46,807 nt of DNA from Gammaproteobacteria bacterium bin55 (GTDB lineage: Bacteria; Pseudomonadota; Gammaproteobacteria; Pseudomonadales; Azotimanducaceae), in NCBI GenBank assembly GCA_002238665.1, contig MPMU01000008.1:1-46807 (forward strand). The letters are read 5' to 3'. The translations under genes were made by a program, and so were the position numbers. A model generated the notes under the pieces. It saw nothing but the letters and a program-made list of their open reading frames with translations. It made no database searches and had not been told where the DNA came from. This document shows positions 13,679 through 42,624 of this stretch, piece by piece. Each line of letters begins with the position of its first letter. Position 1 is the first letter of the stretch.

Positions 13679-13724
13679 CAAAGGGTTGGTTCTACCCAGC
13701 TTTTAACTTAGGTGGAACCCTTTG
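13679..13724. terminator. Candidate bidirectional terminator between uvrA and rplQ
   Basis: CAAAGGGTT (13679-13687) and AACCCTTTG (13716-13724) form a 9-bp inverted repeat across the 30-base gap between the converging stop codons. It reaches into the last rplQ codons. A smaller GGGT...ACCC hairpin followed by AGCTTTT lies inside. The large loop makes efficiency uncertain. Confidence 0.4.
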
Positions 13725-14346
13725 GTTTAGCTTCTTCAGTCTTTTGGCTTTCCTCTGATTGAGGAGCATCAGACTCTGTCGAGGTAGTCTCTGAATCCAC
13801 CGCTTCAGCAGTACTTTCTGTTGTAGAAGCTTGTGCCTCCGTTGCCTCTGAAGTCTCAGGTTGTGGTTTCTCTTCCACTTCCACTACTTCAGCTTTAGGC
13901 TCCTCAACCGGTGCTGGCGCTTCTGGTTCAGCAACCGTAGATGCAACAGGTTCTGTCGACTCTATATCCTCTTCGTCGTAGTCTGGTCTGGGACGATCTA
14001 CCAATTCAACGTAGGCTACCATGGTAGCGTCGCCGTGGCGATAGCCCGCTTTCAGTATGCGTGTGTACCCACCAGGTCTGCTCTTGTATCTTGGGCCTAG
14101 CTCTGCAAACAGCTTTCCAACTGCAGGCTTGCTTCGCAGACGCGCAAACGCCAACCTTCGATTAGCGACCGAATCTTCTTTTGCCAGCGTGATCAAAGGC
14201 TCTACCTTTCGGCGTAGTTCCTTTGCTTTGACGGTCGTAGTCTTGATCAATTCATGCTCGATTAACGACGCTGCCATATTCGTAAACATCGCTTTGCGAT
14301 GAGCTGAGGTGCGGTTTAAATGTTTACCGCTCTTACGGTGTCTCAT
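13708..14346 (-). CDS. rplQ: 50S ribosomal protein L17 with long acidic C-terminal tail
   Basis: The first 120 or so residues are ordinary L17 ([49 protein letters not shown]). L17 sits near the peptide exit tunnel of the 50S subunit. From about residue 125 to 212 there is a low-complexity tail rich in Glu, Ala, Ser, Thr and Pro, absent from the 127-residue E. coli protein. Comparable A/E tails exist on actinobacterial L17. It is the last gene of the alpha operon, 33 bases after rpoA. Confidence 0.95.
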
Positions 14347-16604: not shown

Positions 16605-16961
16605 TTATCCTCGAATTAATCGTTTTGGACCCTTCCGGGTTCTGGCATTAGTGCGCGTTCGTTGCCCTCGCACCGGCAGTCGCCGACGATGACGTATACC
16701 TCGATACGTACCGAGATCCATGAGCCGCTTGACATTCATTTGTTGCTCGCGACGTAGATCCCCTTCTACCGTGTAGCTCTGGACTTTGGAGCGCAACCTA
16801 TCGAGTTGCTCCTCGGTCAGTTCACTAACTTTGCTATCGTTCGCAATTCGCGCTTCTTGGCATATTCGTTCAGCTGTACTCCGGCCGATACCGTAGATAT
16901 ATGTCAATGAAATACATACATGTTTCGCATCTGGAATGTTGATACCTGCAATACGTGCCAC
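16605..16961 (-). CDS. rpsM: 30S ribosomal protein S13
   Basis: 118 residues, the same length as E. coli. [31 protein letters not shown], then [20 protein letters not shown] at the C-terminus. S13 sits in the head of the 30S subunit and bridges to the 50S. The start is GTG at 16961, five bases after the rpmJ stop. It opens the alpha-operon part. Confidence 0.96.
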
Positions 16962-16966
16962 TTTAC

Positions 16967-17083
16967 TTATCCCTGTCTTTGCTTGTGTTTCGGATCAGCT
17001 TTGCAAATCACATACAAAATGCCGCGACGCCGCACAATCTTGCAATTGCGGCACATCTTCTTTACGGATGCTCTTACCTTCAC
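16967..17083 (-). CDS. rpmJ: 50S ribosomal protein L36
   Basis: A 38-codon gene between secY and rpsM, found by reading the minus strand directly. It begins [20 protein letters not shown] (GTG start) and ends [12 protein letters not shown]. The zinc ligands C11, C14, C27 and H33 are present, so this is the zinc-binding (C+) form. Length is identical to E. coli L36. AGTAGGT lies about 8 bases upstream of the GTG. Confidence 0.95.
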
Positions 17084-32235: not shown

Positions 32236-32340
32236 TCAGTCAAAGTAGCGATGAATCTGAACTACAGCGGAGACCAAAGCACGCGCTTCAGCCTCCGCAT
32301 TTTCAGCTAATTCAGGATCCTTCAGACACTGACAATTCAT
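32236..32340 (-). CDS. Possible small ORF overlapping the rpoC stop (34 codons, unproven)
   Basis: In the +1 frame relative to rpoC, ATG at 32340 opens [20 protein letters not shown], continues [13 protein letters not shown] and ends at TGA (32238-32236). It overlaps the last 29 bases of rpoC. The Ala/Glu-rich helical composition looks coding-like, and GGTGGGG stands directly before the ATG. It could be a small protein, the relic of a longer RpoC tail lost by frameshift, or chance. I recognise no family. Confidence 0.2.
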
Positions 32341-35300
32341 CCCCACCGCTATGTTCTGATACGATCTGACTCGTTTCATCAACGGTCAAGCCACGCGCTT
32401 CAGCTTCTTCCATAAGCCGTCGCTCTTCAGCTTTACGCTTCTGTTCACGATGGAACTCAAGACCTGTACCTGCTGGAATTAATCGTCCGACAATGACGTT
32501 TTCCTTCAAGCCGCGCAACTCGTCTCGCTTACCGTGTACGGCAGCGTCTGTCAGAATCCGTGTGGTTTCCTGGAACGAAGCGGCCGAGATAAAGGACGCG
32601 GTTTCTAGCGATGCTCGTCGAATTGGTAGCAATACTCTTTTTGCCGCAGCCGGTATTAGCTTGGCTTCCTTAAGCTCGTCGCAGCTATCGCGCCAGTGGT
32701 CCAGCTCAACCAACTCACCTTTGACATATTCGGAATCGTTCTGCTCAGTGACTTCCACCTTTCTAAGCATCTGATGCACGATCACCTCAATGTGCTTGTC
32801 ATTAATGACAACACCTTGCAGTCGATAGACTTCCTGGATTCCGTCAACGATGAATTCAGTCAATTTATGGACACCTCTAAATGCGAGAATGTCGTGTGGG
32901 TCTAATGCGCCACCATCGACAATGATTTCACCCATCTCAATCCTGTCACCTGGAAATACGGTGATATTCCGTGACTTGTTGATGAGCTTCTCATAGGAAG
33001 TTCCCTCTTCGTCCGTAATCACGAGACGATTCTTGAGTGCCGTATCTTTGCCGTAACTGACAGTTCCCGACTGTGCTGCTAAGATCGCTGATTCCTTCGG
33101 CTTACGTGCCTCAAACAGATTAATAACCTGAGGCAAACCACCGACGATATCCATGTTACCTGAACTTTCGGTTGGTACAGACGCAATCTTTTGTCCTCGC
33201 TCTATAAATCCTCCAGGCGTAGACGCCATGGGCTCAATGATGGCTGATTCAGGTAACTCATGCATTGAAGCTACGTGGGTCGTAAACATCTTCGTACGAC
33301 TTTGAACTGAATCACCGGCTTCCACATGTAGCACCGAACCAAATGGCACTTCCTGCTTATCTGTAGCAGTCGATCCACCTCGAGCTCGAGATCGAGCACT
33401 ATCTACCCACAGTGAACCACCCGGGCGGGCTACAATGACCTTACCGTCATACTCAAACGTCTCGATGTTCTCGAACATGACCTTACCGGAATTCCGTGCA
33501 GCGACTGAATTCTCTTGACGATTCAGGTCTACGATACCAATTCGCGGACTCAGTTCACGTCCTTCAGTCGTACGTTCGGACTCCTTCTTGACCTCTAACG
33601 TGTCAATATTTGTCTGTTCATCTCTCAACAGCGTGACCGTTTCACCACTGATCAAGTCAATTGGGATGGTCACACCACTCACATTCTCAGAAATAATCGG
33701 TCGTGAGAGCGTATCCCAGTTAGCAATTGTCTGACCTGCAGAGACCGTAGAACCATCTGGTACAGTGAGTACCGCGCCGTAAGGAATCTTATGACGTTCT
33801 CTTTCAATGCCAGCATTATCTCTAACGATAATCCTTCCCGAACGGTCCGCTGATATCCAAGAATTCTCAGATTCACGTTCGACTAGCTGTCGAATCTCAA
33901 ACTTGATCGTACCTTCGGTATTTACCGTGACATCGTTTACAGCAGTATCTCTAGAAGCTGCACCGCCGTGGTGGAACGTTCGCAACGTAAGCTGAGTACC
34001 AGGCTCGCCGATAGACTGTGCCGCCATCACACCGACCGCTTCGCCTTTATTGACCAGATGCCCTCGGGCCAGGTCGCGACCGTAGCACTTGGCACACAAT
34101 CCGTACTTGGTTTCACATGTGACAGGTGATCGAACCTTAATTTCATGCACAGTTTGGAGTCGGTCCAGAATATCTTCGTCGATCAGATCGCCTTTCTCGA
34201 GTATTACTTCCTCCGTGAACGGATCCTTTACTACGTCCGCAGTCACGCGCCCCAAAACTCTGGCAGCTAGTCCCTCCACCACTCTTCCTCGTTCGATGAT
34301 AGCTTGTAGATTCAGACCATTCGAGGTTCCGCAATCCGCTTCAGTAATCACCAGATCCTGTGCAACGTCGACCAAACGACGCGTGAAGTAACCCGCAAAC
34401 GAAGTTTTCAGTGCAGTGTCTGCGAGACCTTTTCGAGCCCCGTGAGTGGACATGAAGTACTCGTTCACCTTTAGTCCTTCACGGAAGTTCGCCACGATGG
34501 GCGATTCCATGATTTCACCATTAGGCTTTGCCATCAGACCACGCATACCACCTACCTGACGCAACTGCGTCGGCGTACCTCGAGACTTCGAGTCGGCGTA
34601 CATGTAAACCGAGTTGAACGATTTCTGTTCTACCTCGTCACCTTCTGCAGTCACCGTGGTTTCGGTTTCTAGCTCATCCATCATTGCCTTACCGATTTGG
34701 TCAGACGCTTTACCCCAAATATCGGTGACCTTGTTGTACTTCTCGGTCTCGGTGGTGAGACTGTTTTCAAACTGATATTCGATCTCCGAGGCAGCCTGAT
34801 TGGCCGTGTCAATAATTGACTCTTTCGCGTTCGGAATGATGAAATCCTCGATGCAGATCGAGCAACCAGATTTAGTTGAGTAACGGAATCCCATATTCAT
34901 GAGTTGATCGGCAAAGATAACAGTATCTTTCAAGCCAAAGTTCCGGTAGACATAGTCAATCAGCTTTGAAATCTGATCTTTCGGTAGAACCTTGTTGATC
35001 AACTGAAAATCCATGCCTTCAGGAATAATGTCAGCTAACAAAGCTCGACCTACAGTCGTACCCACCATCTGGTAATTTCGATGCCCCTGGGCGTCAATCG
35101 ACTCGAGACGAACTTTGATCTTGCTATGTAGTTCGACTTCGTCATTCTGATAGGCTCGAGTGACCTCTTCGAAATCGGTAAACGTTCGGTTCTCGCCCCG
35201 ACCATTGACCTTTTCTCTTGTCAGGTAATAAAGACCGAGTACGACATCCTGGTTCGGATTAATAATCGGCTCACCGTTGGCAGGTGACAAGATGTTGTTG

Positions 35301-36769
35301 GTCGACATCATAATTGCTCGAGATTCAAGCTGAGCCTCAAACGTCAATGGCACATGTACGGCCATCTGATCTCCATCGAAGTCAGCATTGAAAGCGACAC
35401 AAACCAAAGGATGGAGCTGAATCGCCTTACCTTCGATCAATACCGGCTCAAATGCCTGGATACTAAGGCGGTGTAACGTCGGTGCACGATTGAGCAGCAC
35501 TGGATGTTCTCGAATGACGTTTGGCAGAACTTCCCAAACTTTGTAATGCTCCGCATCCACCATGTTTTTAGCCATCTTTGTGGTAGGCGCATACTGTCGT
35601 TTAGCTAGCTCGTTGTATACAAACGGGCGGAATAGCTCAAGTGCCATGCGTTTCGGTAAACCACACTGATGAAGTTTCAAAGTGGGTCCAACGACGATGA
35701 CTGAACGTCCGGAATAGTCGACACGCTTACCTAGTAGGTTCTGACGGAACCGACCTTGCTTACCTTTAATCATGTCCGACAGAGACTTGAGAGGTAGCTT
35801 ATTGCGGCCAGTGGCTGCTCGGCCACGTCGACCGTTATCCAGCAACGCGTCTACTGCTTCTTGAAGCATTCGTTTTTCGTTGCGTTGAATGATCTGCGGG
35901 GAGCGAAGTTCCATGATCCTCGCCAAACGATTATTTCGACTAATAACTCGACGATACAAATCGTTCAAATCAGAGGTCGCAAATCGACCGCCTTCCATGG
36001 GGACGAGTGGGCGCAATTCCGGCGGCAACACGGGAAGCGTCTTCAGTACCATCCAAGCTGGGTTGTTCCCGGACTTGATAAACGCATTCACCAACTTAAG
36101 TCGCTTGGTGATTTTGCGTCGAGTACTTTCCGAGTTTGTCTCCTCCATCTCGATTTGAAGTTGCTGCTGCAGTTCTTCCAGATCGAGTGTTTCAAGTAAT
36201 TCCTGGACGCCTTCGGCGCCGATATTGGTGCTGAATACTTCTTCTCCACCCCACAATTCTCGAGCTTCCTGAAGTTCGTCATCCGTCATTAGCTTTCGTA
36301 GCGGAATCTGTTCCGGAATAGTGGTCTCGGTTACCACATGCTGATCGAAATAGATAATGCGCTCGAGTTCTTTGAGGTCCATGCCGAGCAACAATGCCAT
36401 TCGAGATGGAATCGACTTCACGAACCATATGTGAGATACCGGGCTGGCTAGCTCGATGTGCCCCATCCGTTCCCGCCGAACTTCCTTGGTAGTTACTTCG
36501 ACGCCGCACTTTTCACAGATTACGCCGCGATGCTTAGGTCGCTTGTACTTCCCGCACAGACATTCGTAGTCATTGATCGGCCCGAAAATTTTGGCACAGA
36601 ACAGGCCATCCCGTTCTGGTTTCAACGTTCGGTAATTAATGGTTTCCGGCTTCTTTACCTCACCGTAGGACCATCGTCTAATTTCCTCTGGTGAAGCTAA
36701 TCCGACGCGAAGGGCGTTGAAATCTTCAACAGCCTTTACTCGGTTGTTAGGAATTAACCAAGGTGCCAT
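32312..36769 (-). CDS. rpoC: RNA polymerase subunit beta prime with expanded SI3
   Basis: A 1485-residue catalytic subunit. The N-terminal zinc site is [20 protein letters not shown]. The catalytic Asp triad is in [15 protein letters not shown], the bridge helix is near [16 protein letters not shown], and the second zinc site combines EADCGTSNG with [15 protein letters not shown]. The trigger loop is around [16 protein letters not shown] (about 922-937), interrupted by SI3. SI3 spans about residues 940-1212 against about 190 in E. coli, which accounts for the whole length excess over 1407. The C-terminus [20 protein letters not shown] is normal. The start is ATG, 14 bases after rpoB, behind a run of eight G. 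Confidence 0.97.
33230..33500 (-). repeat. RpoC SI3: extra barrel-sandwich domain copy
   Basis: About residues 1090-1180. Pattern: [29 protein letters not shown], then [17 protein letters not shown]. This mirrors the first SI3 domain upstream (GTIKFEI..., [28 protein letters not shown]). E. coli has no such segment at this point, so it reads as a tandem duplication. Confidence 0.65.
33670..33935 (-). repeat. RpoC SI3: first barrel-sandwich domain
   Basis: About residues 945-1033: [50 protein letters not shown] and [14 protein letters not shown]. It aligns with the first SI3 domain of E. coli (KVPYGAVL...DGEQVAGGET...NWDP) and is the presumed parent of the extra copy. Confidence 0.7.
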
Positions 36770-36783
36770 GTCTTATCCCCCCC

Positions 36784-39700
36784 CTAAACGTTTTCTAATT
36801 CAATGTTCAAACCAAGCGAACGTATTTCTCTACGAATTACGTTGAATGATTCTGGTATACCAGGTTTCATGCGATAGTCACCATCCACAATATTGCTGTA
36901 AACCTTCGCTCGACCATCTAGGTCATCTGACTTGAAGGTCAACATCTCCTGTAAGGTGTGTGCGGCTCCATAGGCTTCCAGCGCCCAGACTTCCATTTCC
37001 CCAAATCTTTGACCACCTAACCTGGCTTTACCACCTAGTGGTTGTTGGGTTACCATGCTGTATGCACCGGTAGACCTTGAGTGCATCTTGTCGTCTACCA
37101 AGTGGTGCAACTTGAGCATGTACATGTAGCCGATTGTGACCGGACGATCAAAGGCTTCACCAGTACGACCGTCGTATAGCGTCGTCTGACCATTCTCTGG
37201 TAGACCAGCCTTTCGTAACAAATCCTGAATGTCAGCTTCTTTAGCACCATCAAAGATAGGAGTCGTGATACTCAGTCCTTTTCTGAGATTGCCAGCTAAC
37301 TCAACCAATTCCTGATCCGTCAACGAATCGATATCTTCGTGATGACCTTCGGTTTTGTTATAGATGTCATTGAGATAAGCCCGTAGTTTCGCAACCGACT
37401 GCTGTTGGTCCAGCATGTCACCGATCTTTTGACCTATTCCCTTAACAGCCCAGCCTAATTGGGTCTCAAGTACTTGGCCAACATTCATTCTGGACGGCAC
37501 GCCAAGTGGGTTCAAGACGATGTCAATAGGCTCACCGTTTTCGTCATAAGGCATATCTTCCACCGGCATGATCACGGAAATCACGCCTTTGTTGCCGTGT
37601 CGACCGGCCATTTTGTCCCCAGCCTGGATGCGCTTCTTAGTCGCCAAGTAAACCTTGACTTCCTTTAAAACACCTGGTTGGAGATCGCTACCTCTTGAGA
37701 ACTTGGCTTGTTTCTCATCTCTGAGTTTTTCGTGCTGTTCACGAAGTTTCCTCAGATCGCTCTCAACCGTTTCCAGCATGCGGTTCAGCTGGTCATCTTC
37801 CATCCGAATCGTGAGCCACTCATCGTCGTCCATAGCATCCAAAATGGCTGCTGTGATCGCACGACTCCCGTCATAGCCAGGGATGCTCACTGCCTTCTGG
37901 TTCAATATAGCCTTTCGTATGGAATCGAAACTCGATCGTTGATAAATCTGATACTCATCTGCGAGATCGTTTTCGTAAGCAATCAGAGCTTCTTCTTCAA
38001 TTTCATAAGCACGTTCATCTTTGTCCACGCCTTCTCGAGTGAAGACGCGTACCTCAATAACGGTACCTGAAACACCCGAAGGAACCCGCAAAGAAGTGTC
38101 TTTTACGTCATCAGCTTTTGCACCAAAAATGGCTCGCAAGAGCTTTTCTTCGCCAGTTGCCTGAGATTCTTCTCTAGGAGTCACCTTGCCGACGAGAATA
38201 TCGCCTTCCTTAACTTCTGCGCCCAATCTGACAATACCACACTCGTCGAGCTGACTGAGTGCTGAATCATTCACATTAGGTATATCTGCAGTAACTTCCT
38301 CATTCCCCATCTTCGTTTCTCGAGCCGTACATACTTCCTCGAGAATGTGTATTGAGGTGAATCGATCCTCTTGAACGACACGTTCAGACACCAGGATCGA
38401 ATCTTCATAGTTAAAGCCATTCCACATCATGAACGCGATTCGGACATTTTGTCCTAAAGCGAGTTCACCAAGATCTACTGATGGACCATCTGCCAGGACG
38501 TCGTTCGCTTCGATCCGGTCACCTTCTTTAACAATCGGACGTTGGTTGATACAGGTATCTTGATTGGAGCGCTTGAATTTAGTCAGGTTGTAAATGTCAA
38601 TGGCATCCGTCACACCCTTTGACGCTTCGGGATCGACTCGAATCACGATTCTTCCCGCGTCCACCAACTCTACAATGCCTGGTCGTTTAGCGGTTACGCA
38701 TACACCTGAATCCCGCGCGACATAACCTTCCACCCCGGTTCCTACCAAAGGCGCCTCTACCTGCACAGTAGGCACAGCCTGCCGTTGCTGGTTAGAGCCC
38801 ATGAGCCCTCTGTTGGCCTCATCATGCTCAAGGAAAGGAATTAATGCTGCGGAGATCGAAACGATTTGCTTCGGCGATACATCCATGTACCTCACTCTGT
38901 CACTAGATCGACGTGTGAATTCACCGTCCACCCGGACATCTACACGATCTTCGGCAAACTCACTCACATCCGTGATGGGTGCGTTGGCTTGCGCAATAGG
39001 GTGTTGCCCTTCGTCCATGAACGATAGATATTCGATCTTGTCACTGACTTCGCCTTCTTCTACCACACGAAACGGTGCTTCTATGAAGCCATGCTTATTG
39101 GTTCGTGCGTGGATCGTGAGACTACTGATGAGACCAATGTTGGCACCTTCAGGTGTCTCAATCGGACATACTCGACCGTAATGGGAGCGGTGCACGTCAC
39201 GTACTTCGTATCCAGCATGTTCGCGGGTAAGACCACCTGGTCCCAATGCCGATACTTTCCGTTTGTGCGTAACTTCCGCCAACGGATTAGTCTGTTCCAT
39301 AAACTGCGACAGCTCATGGCCACCGAAAAATTCCTTGACAGCTGCGGCTATAGGCTTTGTATTTATCAAATCCTGAGGCATTAGCTTGTCTGCCCAAGCA
39401 TTTGAAAGTCGGTCTTTAACCGCTCTGTCTACCCGGCGTAGCCCACCGCGAAATGCGATCTCTGCCAATTCACCGACCGACCGAACTCGCCTATTTCCTA
39501 GGCTATCGATATCGTCGACTGTTTCCTGTTCGGTGTCACTTTCCTCGTCTGGCACTTGAACCACTTCGAGCAGCTTCTTGAGTACGCCAATAATGTCGTA
39601 CTTATCCAGAACGTTTGGATCTAGATTGGTCTTGAAAACTGCCTCTACTTTGGGATCGGCCATCTGCTGCAAGCGTTTAAGTGCCGCACCATACAGCGCA

Positions 39701-42624
39701 TCTCCGGTCTGCGCGAGGTGATTCCCGTCCTGATCCTGATATGTGAATTTACAGGTCAAGCCGCGGATATATACATCCGGATCTAACTGGTGTAGATTCA
39801 CGAGTACGTCAATTTCACTGACTTGAGACTTCCGCAGTTGGGTGACGACATCTGGATTTAATTTTCTCCCTTTTCGGAGAACGACTTTGCCTTCAATTTC
39901 GACATTTTCCTTCGCCGTCAGAAGCGACAGGTTGTTTTCTTCTTCCCATCCCAACCTACGGTTGAACTTCATGCGGCCTACGCCAGAAAGCTCATACTTC
40001 TCTTGCGCGAAAAACGTTCTAGTGAATAAGGTCTGCGCAGACTCCAAAGTAACTGGTTCGCCCGGACGCAACACGTTATAAATCTCAACCAAAGACTGTG
40101 CCTTGGAGTTCTTTGGCTCAGTGTCAGGATCTCTTCGTAAGGTGTCGGCAATAAAGGATCGATCTTTAAAACCACTGATTGCGAGTGTTTCGAATTCATC
40201 GACACCCCAATCTCGCATTCGGGTAATGTGGTCCGTGTTTAGAACAGTGTTACATGGAAGCAACACTTCACCAGACTCGATATCCTCAATGTTCTTAGCC
40301 AAGATCAGCCCGTCAAAGAAGCTGTCTGGCACCTGAAACTTTCTATTCTTATCCGTCAGTCCTTTCAATCGATTGATCGCTCTTCGATTCACGCGATCTC
40401 CGGCATTGCAGATAATCTCGCCTTCTTCGTCGAAATAATCAATGCGGGCAGTTTCACCACGAAGATGATCGGGGTCCCACTTTGAATATCGGAGTTTTCG
40501 CTCACCACGTGACTCAAACTCAAACGTGAATGTTTGATAGAACTCATCAAGAATGTTTTGATCCGACAAGTCCAACGCCCTGAGCATGTGCGTCACATGC
40601 AGTTTCTTCTTGCGGTCAATTCGAACAAACACATACTCTTGCTGATCTCGATCGCGACCCGAACGTGCCTGACCAGATCTTGTCCTTCCGCTATCCGGCG
40701 TTCGCCAATTAGCTGTATCGGATAGCCCTTTGATGTATCTCGAGTGCAACTCGGAGAGTTTCTCAATCGAGCTTGCTTCTTCTGCCGAATGCTCCTTTGC
40801 TAATTCCGCTTCAATCGCCTCAACGTAGATCGCATCTGAGTCATCTTCCTTTTGACCATGGATTCTTCGCTGTGCGTCCTTTTCCTCTTCTTCTCGGAGC
40901 ATTGGCGGTGGTTCATGCGCGGACATGAAATTAACAATATCCTGAGGTATTACACCTTGTTCGGTCAGTTCGTCGGTGATCTGCTCTGCAGTGTTTTCAT
41001 TGATAAACAATGTCTGCAAATCAGTTATGCCGTATTCCCGCGCCAGCTCTAGCGTTGAAGGAGAGATCATCTCCCCTGCTTCAAGGATAACTGAATCATC
41101 TTCTGGATTTATGATCGATTCAACAACCATCTGATCAAGTAGAAACTCTTCTGGAACCTTGATTTCATCAAGCTTCTTCATCCTTGATACGTGATAGGAG
41201 GTGAAAACTGTGTCCGCACGCACGATGTTCCGGTTGCTGTCACCTTTGACATCCATCGGGCAGACCCGTCCTAACAGACGTTCTGGGTCGGGTAAGTCGA
41301 GTATCGCCAACCCACCCTCAATCAAGGTGTAGTTGTCATGTGCGATGGTTTCGCTTAAGACTTTCGAGAAATCACCTGAGTGCTGATTTAACAGCACCTT
41401 TACTGCTTGGAAATACTCGTGCTGTTTTCTTGGGATAGCACCCGCTTCATAAGCATCTTCTACACCGCTTGCGGCTTTGATCAGGCCACTAAGAGTTTTC
41501 GCGTACCGTGAACGATTAATGTGTATCGTCTTGAATTCTGCGATTTGAGCGTCGCGGATTCGTCGTAGGAAGCCTTCATCAAGGGAGTTGCCTTGTTCTA
41601 CGATCACCTGGCCTGAATCGGGGTCCAAGATTTCCTCAGCAACTTGTCGGTAGTGCAGGAACTCTTCGGAGACCTCTATACGCTTTTTTTCGATGGAACA
41701 TTTATTTAGTCGCTGTGCATGTTTCTGTGTGACTAATGCACCTTGTGCAACAATGACTCGATCATTGTCATCAAACAAATCGACAGGTGCTTCTTCTCCA
41801 ACATAGCGCTCTGCATCGTCGATATGCCAGTAGAAAGAGTCTTCGTCCTGGACAAAAATTTCGTCCGTTCCGATATATTTTTCGATCAACTCGGTTTTCG
41901 GTATGCCTAAACCAGACATCCATTCGCCGACCTCACGGACAAAGCGAGCATTTTCATCTTTGCGATGTCGATCGCGTTCTCGTCGATCGGTGTCTTCTTT
42001 GACTTCCCGTTCTCGTTGTTGGCGTTCGCGATGCTCCTTGGAGTCAAAACCAAGTTCGAAATCCAGCCACGAACCGATCGCGGGAATTACTCTGGCACTA
42101 AAAACTTTGCGGTTCGCATAGGTCTTACCGTCGTCGTGCATCATGTAAACACCGGGTGAACGATGCAGTTGCGAAACCACGACACGTTCAATCCCTTTAA
42201 TAACAAAGGTACCATTCGGCGTCATCAATGGGATGTCGCCAATAAATATCTCTTGATCGATGGCTTCCGCGATTCGTCGTTCTTTTGTCTCTCGGTCGTA
42301 GTGCAAGAGCCGCAGGACCACATGCAGTGGTGCTGCGTAATTAATACCGTGGTGGATGCACTCCTCCCAGGTAAATTCAGGTTCTAGGAGCTCATACTTC
42401 ACATAGTCCAGTGCTGCTTTCTCGTTATTACTAACGATAGGAAGTACCGCTCGAAAACCTGCGTGTAGTCCGATGTTCTCCCGCTTGTCGGCAGATACAT
42501 TGGCTTGCAGGAACTGCTTATAGGAATCGAGCTGGATGTCTAGCAGATTCGGAAACGGCATGGTTTCACGCAATCTACCGAAATTTTTACGAATGCGCTT
42601 CTTTTGAGTAAAGCTATACGCCAT
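36784..42624 (-). CDS. rpoB: RNA polymerase subunit beta, greatly enlarged (1946 residues)
   Basis: It starts AYSFTQKKRIRKNFGRLRE and ends EIRSLGLNIELENV, like E. coli beta (1342), and the frame is open throughout. The conserved core is intact: VSQLHRSPGV, GRMKFNRR, LGPGGLTREHAGYEVRDVH, GRVCPIETPEGANIGL, DGPSVDLGELALGQN, KMAGRHGNKGVIS and GGQRFGEMEVWALEAYGAA. SI2 is present with its coiled coil (residues about 1590-1690). Two extra insertions explain the length: residues about 192-664 in the lobe, between GSWLDFEL and VFVRIDRKKKL, and about 893-1006 after GRMKFNRRLGWEEE. Both carry SI1-like modules. Rif-region differences from E. coli are described among the findings. It is 95 bases downstream of rplL. 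Confidence 0.95.
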   Translation of the reverse strand: MAYSFTQKKRIRKNFGRLRETMPFPNLLDIQLDSYKQFLQANVSADKRENIGLHAGFRAVLPIVSNNEKAALDYVKYELLEPEFTWEECIHHGINYAAPLHVVLRLLHYDRETKERRIAEAIDQEIFIGDIPLMTPNGTFVIKGIERVVVSQLHRSPGVYMMHDDGKTYANRKVFSARVIPAIGSWLDFELGFDSKEHRERQQREREVKEDTDRRERDRHRKDENARFVREVGEWMSGLGIPKTELIEKYIGTDEIFVQDEDSFYWHIDDAERYVGEEAPVDLFDDNDRVIVAQGALVTQKHAQRLNKCSIEKKRIEVSEEFLHYRQVAEEILDPDSGQVIVEQGNSLDEGFLRRIRDAQIAEFKTIHINRSRYAKTLSGLIKAASGVEDAYEAGAIPRKQHEYFQAVKVLLNQHSGDFSKVLSETIAHDNYTLIEGGLAILDLPDPERLLGRVCPMDVKGDSNRNIVRADTVFTSYHVSRMKKLDEIKVPEEFLLDQMVVESIINPEDDSVILEAGEMISPSTLELAREYGITDLQTLFINENTAEQITDELTEQGVIPQDIVNFMSAHEPPPMLREEEEKDAQRRIHGQKEDDSDAIYVEAIEAELAKEHSAEEASSIEKLSELHSRYIKGLSDTANWRTPDSGRTRSGQARSGRDRDQQEYVFVRIDRKKKLHVTHMLRALDLSDQNILDEFYQTFTFEFESRGERKLRYSKWDPDHLRGETARIDYFDEEGEIICNAGDRVNRRAINRLKGLTDKNRKFQVPDSFFDGLILAKNIEDIESGEVLLPCNTVLNTDHITRMRDWGVDEFETLAISGFKDRSFIADTLRRDPDTEPKNSKAQSLVEIYNVLRPGEPVTLESAQTLFTRTFFAQEKYELSGVGRMKFNRRLGWEEENNLSLLTAKENVEIEGKVVLRKGRKLNPDVVTQLRKSQVSEIDVLVNLHQLDPDVYIRGLTCKFTYQDQDGNHLAQTGDALYGAALKRLQQMADPKVEAVFKTNLDPNVLDKYDIIGVLKKLLEVVQVPDEESDTEQETVDDIDSLGNRRVRSVGELAEIAFRGGLRRVDRAVKDRLSNAWADKLMPQDLINTKPIAAAVKEFFGGHELSQFMEQTNPLAEVTHKRKVSALGPGGLTREHAGYEVRDVHRSHYGRVCPIETPEGANIGLISSLTIHARTNKHGFIEAPFRVVEEGEVSDKIEYLSFMDEGQHPIAQANAPITDVSEFAEDRVDVRVDGEFTRRSSDRVRYMDVSPKQIVSISAALIPFLEHDEANRGLMGSNQQRQAVPTVQVEAPLVGTGVEGYVARDSGVCVTAKRPGIVELVDAGRIVIRVDPEASKGVTDAIDIYNLTKFKRSNQDTCINQRPIVKEGDRIEANDVLADGPSVDLGELALGQNVRIAFMMWNGFNYEDSILVSERVVQEDRFTSIHILEEVCTARETKMGNEEVTADIPNVNDSALSQLDECGIVRLGAEVKEGDILVGKVTPREESQATGEEKLLRAIFGAKADDVKDTSLRVPSGVSGTVIEVRVFTREGVDKDERAYEIEEEALIAYENDLADEYQIYQRSSFDSIRKAILNQKAVSIPGYDGSRAITAAILDAMDDDEWLTIRMEDDQLNRMLETVESDLRKLREQHEKLRDEKQAKFSRGSDLQPGVLKEVKVYLATKKRIQAGDKMAGRHGNKGVISVIMPVEDMPYDENGEPIDIVLNPLGVPSRMNVGQVLETQLGWAVKGIGQKIGDMLDQQQSVAKLRAYLNDIYNKTEGHHEDIDSLTDQELVELAGNLRKGLSITTPIFDGAKEADIQDLLRKAGLPENGQTTLYDGRTGEAFDRPVTIGYMYMLKLHHLVDDKMHSRSTGAYSMVTQQPLGGKARLGGQRFGEMEVWALEAYGAAHTLQEMLTFKSDDLDGRAKVYSNIVDGDYRMKPGIPESFNVIRREIRSLGLNIELENV
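39580..39912 (-). repeat. RpoB SI1-like module pair D (second insertion)
   Basis: About residues 905-1015. First half: EGKVVLRKGRKLNPDVVTQL with SEIDVLVNL. Second half: DQDGNHLAQTGDALYGAALK and VEAVFKTNLDPNVLDKYDI. Same layout as SI1: a short beta pair with Gly, a helix, then a strand and partner segment. It sits after GRMKFNRR, where E. coli has only a short linker. Confidence 0.6.
40135..40446 (-). repeat. RpoB SI1 module pair C (native position)
   Basis: About residues 727-830, aligning with E. coli SI1. First half: RIDYFDEEGEIICNAGDRVN, RRAINRLKGL, FQVPDSFFDG. Second half: SGEVLLPCNTVLNTDHITRM, DEFETLAISG, SFIADTLRRDP. This is the copy expected in any gammaproteobacterial RpoB and the reference for pairs A, B and D. 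Confidence 0.8.
40969..41271 (-). repeat. RpoB SI1-like module pair B (first insertion)
   Basis: About residues 452-552. First half: RNIVRADTVFTSYHVSRMKK then LDEIKVPEEFLLDQMVVE (compare VPVEYIAGKVV in E. coli SI1). Second half: DDSVILEAGEMISPSTLELA, REYGITDLQTLFINENTAEQ (compare IETLFTNDLDHGPYISETL). The similarity is close enough to see by eye. Confidence 0.7.
41476..41778 (-). repeat. RpoB SI1-like module pair A (first insertion)
   Basis: About residues 283-383. First half: NDRVIVAQGALVTQKHAQRL then KKRIEVSEEFLHYRQVAEEI. Second half: SGQVIVEQGNSLDEGFLRRI then EFKTIHINRSRYAKTLSGLI. The alternation of a V.EEF-type segment and a hINr/TLFIN-type segment is the same as in pairs B and C. Confidence 0.65.

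Follow-up and report, generated by a model that had tools for sequence, protein, structure and literature searches.

A 1,946-residue RpoB from the Azotimanducaceae with putative additional SI1-type modules on its beta lobe

We describe an rpoB gene on contig MPMU01000008.1 of Gammaproteobacteria bacterium bin55 (assembly GCA_002238665.1); positions 1 to 46,807 of the contig's forward strand form the window analyzed here and supply all coordinates below. Our favored reading, held with moderate confidence, is that this gene encodes a working RpoB and that three further modules of the SI1 type (BEAN domain, tandem BBM2 motifs) have been added to its beta lobe beyond the native SI1. Two of them, modules A and B, would stand in series within a large insert (insert 1) in the lobe loop just before the segment that bears native SI1, and this lineage would be alone in having them among those seen. 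The third (insert 2) would stand just after the lobe segment and would be an older gain within a clade of the genus.

An RpoB of unusual length

The rpoB gene (positions 36784 to 42624, minus strand) is a single unbroken open reading frame of 1,946 codons, and its product of 1,946 amino acids (aa) scores 1642.6 bits against TIGR02013 (cut-off, 801.15). The source assembly has 183 contigs and is 88% complete. The GC content of insert 1 is 0.47, compared with 0.48 to 0.49 around it. Codon usage of insert 1 in the rpoB frame (-3.95 log units per codon) is that of the core (-3.94), while the other five frames lie at -4.31 to -4.55. The insert-bearing frame is real coding sequence, and codon usage favors the rpoB frame.

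The initial annotation had placed a protein of 1,946 residues far outside the usual size of RpoB, and two length censuses of 150 genomes each agree. In the family census, where 121 genomes had the C-terminal RpoB domain, the next longest frame was 1,473 aa. In the phylum census, where 135 had it, the longest other frame was 1,734 aa (G653), the next above the cut-off was 1,461 aa, and a frame of 1,528 aa (G640) was a weak match below the cut-off. We rejected the G653 frame as a long RpoB: it is an upstream open frame joined to an RpoB with no insert at the insert 1 site. Besides the query, neither census contained an intact RpoB longer than 1,473 aa. The RpoB of genus mate G012, which lay outside both census samples, is 1,550 aa long if its one in-frame TAG is read.

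Insert 1 occupies aa 192 to 661 (positions 40642 to 42051, minus strand), about 470 residues in a lobe loop flanked by SWLDFEL and QEYVFVRIDR. When we searched PDB chains with phmmer, query residues 1 to 194 matched Pseudomonas aeruginosa beta residues 1 to 193 and query residues 660 to 895 matched beta residues 193 to 418, with aa ~195 to 659 lacking a counterpart. The RpoB proteins of relatives have only a short loop between SWLDFEL and VFVRIDR when aligned with the query. The jump of the core from GSWLDFEL to VFVRIDR across residues ~192 to 664 (positions 40633 to 42051), as first annotated, is borne out by both comparisons. We rejected an intein or a mobile insertion, since insert 1 showed no Hint or homing-endonuclease domain and had no Pfam match with an E value better than 0.33 and no PHROG match better than 0.4.

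About 60% of insert 1 is module, and the remainder is linker and helices. Module A (aa 220 to 373; positions 41506 to 41967, minus strand) comprises putative lobe helices and an SI1-type domain, and module B (aa 423 to 546; positions 40987 to 41358, minus strand) comprises a putative SI1-type domain that is acidic. The C-terminal linker (aa 586 to 661; positions 40642 to 40869, minus strand) has predicted helices and then a low-confidence stretch, with a mean predicted local distance difference test (pLDDT) score of ~39 in the last blocks. It is followed by the native beta-lobe segment with native SI1 (aa 662 to 889; positions 39958 to 40641, minus strand), which scores 228 bits against the lobe model described below. 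The net charge of insert 1 is -37 over 470 aa, and that of module B is -21 over aa 399 to 585. Per 100 residues, insert 1 (-7.9) is close to the native SI1 part (-6.7), and module B (-11.2) stands out.

Modules A and B resemble the SI1-bearing lobe

Of the 114 native lobes found, 100 distinct ones went into a hidden Markov model (HMM), with duplicates and G012 excluded; among 80 named loci, 13 had no lobe by the search pattern and were dropped. Against this HMM, module A scored 71.5 bits (aa 219 to 374) and module B scored 54.1 bits (aa 422 to 550). The fragments used in the shuffle test scored 74.5 and 57.1 bits, and the maxima among shuffles were 9.3 bits for A and 7.0 bits for B (these maxima come from those of 1,000 shuffles each that were scored: 868 for A, 883 for B, and 844 for insert 2). 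Across the 131 window frames of at least 80 residues, the HMM found in rpoB the order A, B, native, insert 2, at 68.3, 51.1, 221.4, and 9.2 bits, and its best domain in any non-rpoB frame scored 5.2 bits. Profile alignment with hhalign matched A and B to the lobe profile at 98.9% and 98.1%. In tblastn searches, A and B matched the SI1 of genus mates with E values of 3e-15 and 2e-12, and their own SI1 with 1e-7. Identity to the native SI1 of the same protein is low, at 19 to 22% over common columns and 22 to 29% in local BLAST alignments.

AlphaFold2 models of A and B, built on alignments of 60 of 67 lobes together with the query and the native lobe of the window, had mean pLDDT values of 85 and 77. 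For both models the top Foldseek match was the Escherichia coli lobe in 7egs (E values, 3.3e-8 for A and 3.0e-10 for B), and the SI1 structure 3lti ranked fourth for A and ninth for B. By tblastn, HMM, hhalign, and modelled fold, A and B are SI1-type modules as far as sequence and prediction can tell. The initial annotation had proposed that insert 1 is built largely of such modules, and had named a lack of HMM-HMM similarity between the module pairs and SI1 as grounds for dropping the proposal. With hhalign at 98 to 99%, scores well above shuffles, tblastn matches, and a modelled fold that is to be read with the circularity noted below, the proposal stands. The V.EEF and I/LFIN segments that it had listed for A and B are both present.

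The HMM matches of A and B start upstream of SI1, at positions 10 and 30 of 218, and stop near position 160; the PGEP and VGRMKFN core motifs, which follow SI1, are not in the copies. Because the matches begin upstream of SI1 proper, the copied unit would have been larger than SI1 and would have carried along the lobe helices preceding it. Both copies precede VFVRIDR and thus do not lie at E. coli beta 225 to 343, where only the native copy is found.

Insert 2 is a putative third module

Insert 2 (aa 894 to 1004; positions 39613 to 39945, minus strand) lies just after VGRMKFNRRLGW and corresponds to a second phmmer gap, in which query residues 895 to 1002 stand against P. aeruginosa beta 418 to 421. 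It scored 16.5 bits with the lobe HMM (shuffles, at most 6.9), which makes it a weaker match to SI1 than A and B. Against the lobe profile, hhalign gave 96.5% for a profile of insert 2 from seven genomes and 85.4% for the window sequence alone. When the seven-genome profile was compared with PDB, E. coli SI1 ranked first (E value, 0.0054), and the 18 matches listed were all RNA polymerase beta or beta' subunits or, once, archaeal L10. RNA polymerase beta and beta' and archaeal L10 are named as carriers of BEAN domains in PMC11515920 (here and below, cited papers are drawn on in excerpt).

The insert 2 site is shared by the window genome and six genus mates when these are aligned. Insert 2 is probably older than A and B, given the presence of inserts at this site in a clade of the genus. 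The initial annotation, although correct about insert 1, had missed this third extra module, as well as the SI1 expansion of G012 and the missing Tudor domain of the clade's UvrD proteins, both described below.

Distribution among relatives

Insert 1 is absent from all 17 genus mates, as judged by match positions and lengths. Six of them (G001, G005, G009, G015, G016, and G017) have insert 2 alone, with RpoB proteins of 1,472 to 1,473 aa, and 10 have neither insert nor an expansion of SI1. The remaining mate, G012 (L042, G012:C196), has its own expansion of ~150 residues inside native SI1 and the in-frame TAG mentioned above. The rpoB of G016 (L043, G016:C68) also has one in-frame TAG; the contig has a coverage of ~8 by its name, so a sequencing error is possible there. 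An in-frame TAG in the rpoB genes of two genomes of the genus is a curious observation.

In the order, 22 of 390 genomes, including the query, matched insert 1 with E values of 1e-13 or less. The 21 others matched only aa 27 to 193 of insert 1 and had RpoB frames of at most 1,401 aa; a full-length match was found in none of the 390 genomes at this threshold. As for a foreign or viral carrier, we found no relative of insert 1 in named genomes or viral contigs by six short peptide patterns, with which distant relatives could be missed.

A tree of the RpoB core with 36 rows groups the window RpoB with the insert 2 carriers (support, 100/99). The window RpoB has the longest end branch of this tree (1.04, compared with a median of 0.098), and the program warns of long-branch attraction. 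Its nearest named relatives are the metagenome-assembled genomes JAGWBO010000003 and JAPOVY010000088. A search for the habitat of the genus gave no result. An acceleration specific to RNA polymerase was not supported, because the proteins of the neighboring operon, only some of which could be named by Pfam, are also only 49 to 83% identical to those of genus mates.

Docking motifs and partner proteins

SI1 offers a TGE triad as the docking site for the C-terminal domain of PcrA/UvrD, and PcrA binding in Bacillus subtilis requires the glutamate of this triad (PMC8318588, in excerpt). This glutamate is present in all 100 native lobes, 88 of which have the full TGE; G012, outside this set, shows no TGE-type triad in its displayed stretch. 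At the triad position, module A has SGQ (aa 337 to 339; positions 41608 to 41616, minus strand), in which the glutamate is lost, and module B has DDS (aa 509 to 511; positions 41092 to 41100, minus strand). Native SI1 of the window has the TGE-like SGE (aa 784 to 786; positions 40267 to 40275, minus strand), with the glutamate kept. SI1 also has three conserved basic residues (PMC2939025). At these positions (E. coli beta 268, 272, and 275), 90, 100, and 91 of the 100 native lobes are basic; A has L/K/Q, B has V/Y/S, and the window's native SI1 has R/R/N, with columns assigned by the spacing of 4 and 3 residues and not from an E. coli row. Because A and B have lost the triad glutamate and most of the basic patch, they would not be extra copies of the known docking sites. 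The expectation in the initial annotation of an altered surface for regulators thus finds support at the level of sequence, where A and B have lost both the helicase motif and the greater part of the basic patch.

We detected UvrD in 15 of the 18 genus genomes. The UvrD Tudor domain (PF21196) was found at E values of 0.001 or less in 10 of the 18, with 4 above the curated cut-off, and these 10 are exactly the genomes with neither insert nor SI1 expansion. At the same threshold, PF21196 was found in none of the seven insert 2 carriers, the window genome included, nor in G012. The UvrD proteins of the 10 mates without inserts (L174 to L183) are 750 to 775 aa long with the C-terminal tail kept. 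Those of the five insert 2 carriers in which UvrD was found (L184 to L188) are 680 to 692 aa long, and all five end just past the helicase core.

The DksA of the window's genome (G000:C110:4479-5534, L156) has a basic N-terminal tail of ~231 residues with a net charge of +34, if the assumed start codon holds. The tail is rich in Lys, Ala, Ser, Thr, and Pro and is histone H1-like, as are those of L157 to L167 in genus mates. Long DksA frames (334 to 661 aa from stop to stop, 12 of them read) occur in all 18 genus genomes, and some other genera of the order also have them, judging by frame lengths. We rejected the idea that the long-tailed DksA is tied to the insert, since all 18 genus genomes have a long DksA whatever their RpoB. 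The basic DksA tail is a possible partner of the acidic insert 1 or module B.

Proposed effect on the lobe

In the mechanism that we tentatively propose, the modules would hang as folded beads on the lobe, facing the downstream DNA and the secondary channel, and would change lobe movement and offer new docking surfaces. New surfaces would be expected because A and B lack the SI1 motifs known to serve in docking. On binding of TraR, the lobe moves as one with SI1, which provides most of the TraR-lobe interface; deletion of SI1 nearly abolishes activation by TraR (PMC6970531, in excerpt). Bulky modules near the downstream DNA may therefore alter lobe movement and give new contacts. In the clade, UvrD would have lost the Tudor domain that docks on SI1, and the old helicase tether that constrained SI1 is probably gone. 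A more far-reaching version holds that the coupling of RNA polymerase to repair and regulatory factors on the lobe was rewired in the clade: after the UvrD Tudor was lost, SI1 modules would have multiplied at new sites, and other partners, such as the long basic DksA tail on acidic module B, would now control lobe opening and downstream DNA. We regard this version as rather improbable.

Origin of the modules and alternative explanations

A module tree of 43 chosen rows, including three of the six insert 2 mates, joins A and B as sisters (87/93) and the native lobe with the insert 2 clade (87/80). Grouping of A and B with the native lobe in one clade was neither found nor rejected (approximately unbiased test, p-AU 0.353), and branches are long. 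One capture or duplication followed by doubling best fits A and B. We consider it probable that they arose by duplication of an SI1-bearing lobe segment and then diverged strongly. SI1 of the gene itself is compatible as the source but unproven; of the initial proposal that the lobe grew by duplicating its own insert, the SI1-type nature of the modules has held, while the own-gene source is left unproven by the tree and the p-AU of 0.353.

The modules might instead have come from the RpoB of another organism by recombination or transfer. Module A finds its best match in the native SI1 from a different family of the order (32% identity; E value, 4e-17) and not in its own SI1, and in the module tree both A and B are separate from the native lobe. 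However, a clade that unites them with it was not rejected, and the native lobe is itself so changed (at most 35% identity to any row) that slow-changing homologues would match best regardless. Nor did the 390 order genomes (at the threshold above), the named scan, or the viral scan yield a full-length match to insert 1. We think a foreign source unlikely, though worth keeping in view. An artefact of assembly or binning, which a draft genome in 183 contigs and the occurrence of insert 1 in one genome would allow, deserves hardly any credence. The insert is in frame at both ends inside a contig, with core-like codon usage and similar GC content; the copies, at 19 to 29% identity to native SI1, are too diverged to be misassembled reads of the same gene, and they lack the core motifs that follow SI1 in ordinary RpoB. 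An assembly duplication was rejected on this divergence and the coding signal.

The modules may also be harmless ballast from neutral accretion, in which a fast-changing RpoB took up copies of SI1-bearing segments in surface loops that tolerate them. This is a substantial possibility, though not the one we favor. The long end branch of the window RpoB fits it, as does the loss of the known docking motifs from A and B; in E. coli, deletion of SI1 gives relatively minor growth defects (PMC2939025, in excerpt) but no growth at 42 degrees (PMC6970531). On the other hand, A and B still score as SI1 and give confident models at so low an identity to their own native SI1, which suggests selection on the fold. 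Codon usage of insert 1 equals that of the core, and an insert at the insert 2 site has been kept in seven genomes. Another account makes the modules spare docking sites that multiply the known SI1 sites for UvrD or DksA/TraR, as their shared SI1 fold, the very long basic tail of DksA in the genus, and the net negative charge of insert 1 might suggest. It is very unlikely, because module A has Q and module B has S in place of the triad glutamate that is invariant in the native lobes, because A retains one of the three basic patch positions and B none, and because the Tudor domain is absent from those UvrD proteins of the clade that were found. Moreover, per residue, insert 1 as a whole is hardly more acidic than native SI1, with only B standing out.

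Several results weigh against the reading that a working RpoB gained three SI1-type modules. Insert 1 is known from one incomplete assembly only, so that its conservation over time is not assessable. The models of A and B were built on native-lobe alignments, which favor the native fold and make them no independent evidence of fold; with native lobes as alignment rows, they indicate that the sequences fit the SI1 fold, not that they reach it unaided. TM-scores to 7egs by query length are only 0.44 to 0.47, with part of each model unaligned, and A and B do not join the native lobe in the module tree. Insert 2 of the window and that of L003 share only 23% identity. Sequence proof that the window's insert 2 is the same insert as in the mates, sought by profile against shuffles, was not obtained: the window's sequence scored 12.4 bits against the profile of the other six (shuffles, at most 7.9 bits; 932 of 1,000 scored), and native SI1 of the window scored 13.7. 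Since 12.4 bits is no better than native SI1, the grounds for common descent of insert 2 are its site and the clade, not its sequence, and an independent insertion at the same site is possible. No UvrD turned up in three genomes (that of the window, G001, and G012), each less than 90% complete. As the carriers form one clade, the UvrD Tudor was lost in a single event on a single branch, which gives no statistical link, and the tie of this loss to growth of the lobe is only suggestive. Native SI1 keeps TGE or SGE in six of the seven insert 2 carriers (TDE in G005), a surprising feature if the helicase tether has been lost.

Comparison with known lobe insertions

The closest known system is SI1/beta-i4 of Proteobacteria (BEAN type 4, with two tandem BBM2 motifs; PDB 3lti and 7egs). 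Modules A and B match its profile and predicted fold and include the preceding lobe helices. In contrast to it, the window RpoB has other insertion sites, its copies have lost the helicase triad along with most basic-patch residues, and there are three putative modules beyond the native one. Tandem BBM2 repeats at beta-i4, of which earlier workers predicted one to six (cited in PMC2939025, in excerpt), are alike in that the lobe grows by repeating the same small module. However, that repetition is at the beta-i4 site itself, whereas the copies here lie upstream in another loop and downstream, and A and B come with a neighboring lobe segment. Type 4* RpoB proteins are defined as having a type 4 BEAN plus additional multidomain insertions, with Armatimonadetes named (PMC11515920), and the window RpoB falls under this definition, judged by the definition and not by site. 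Unlike Type 4* of Armatimonadetes, the window RpoB belongs to one branch of a gammaproteobacterial genus and is apparently recent. The position of insert 2, at the end of beta-uD2, seems to be roughly that of SI1/beta-i5 of Firmicutes (BEAN type 3), by coordinates from a table in PMC11515920 and not by direct alignment; in contrast to beta-i5, insert 2 resembles E. coli SI1 in sequence. In the literature searched, mostly judged by titles and the openings of abstracts, we found no description of extra SI1 copies outside the beta-i4 site or of an oversized RpoB. As far as this search shows, four features are new compared with known systems: the sites, the number of modules, the copying of a neighboring lobe segment along with SI1, and the recency within a single genus.

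The insertion of domains into RNA polymerase is regarded as ancient, and one study reads its data as suggesting that the process stopped later in bacterial evolution (PMC11515920, in excerpt). Within this single genus, the same lobe has been enlarged on at least three separate occasions (insert 1, insert 2, and the SI1 expansion of G012), and because of these events insertion seems to be ongoing and catchable near its start. This suggests that an essential enzyme has still been gaining domains recently. That UvrD has lost its Tudor in the clade offers a natural test of whether the tether between SI1 and the helicase constrains the lobe.

Other features of the window

The gene adjacent to rpoB is rpoC (positions 32312 to 36769, minus strand; 1,485 aa). 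Its product has a stretch at aa ~1080 to 1185 that is unaligned to most genus mates, whose unbroken RpoC frames are 1,403 to 1,462 aa long. Ribosomal protein L17 (positions 13708 to 14346, minus strand; 212 aa) carries a C-terminal tail, ~95 residues long, that is acidic and of low complexity. In the ribosomal protein operon, downstream of secY, positions 16929 to 17014 (minus strand) match the Rfam family Alpha_RBS with 38.7 bits (cut-off, 38).

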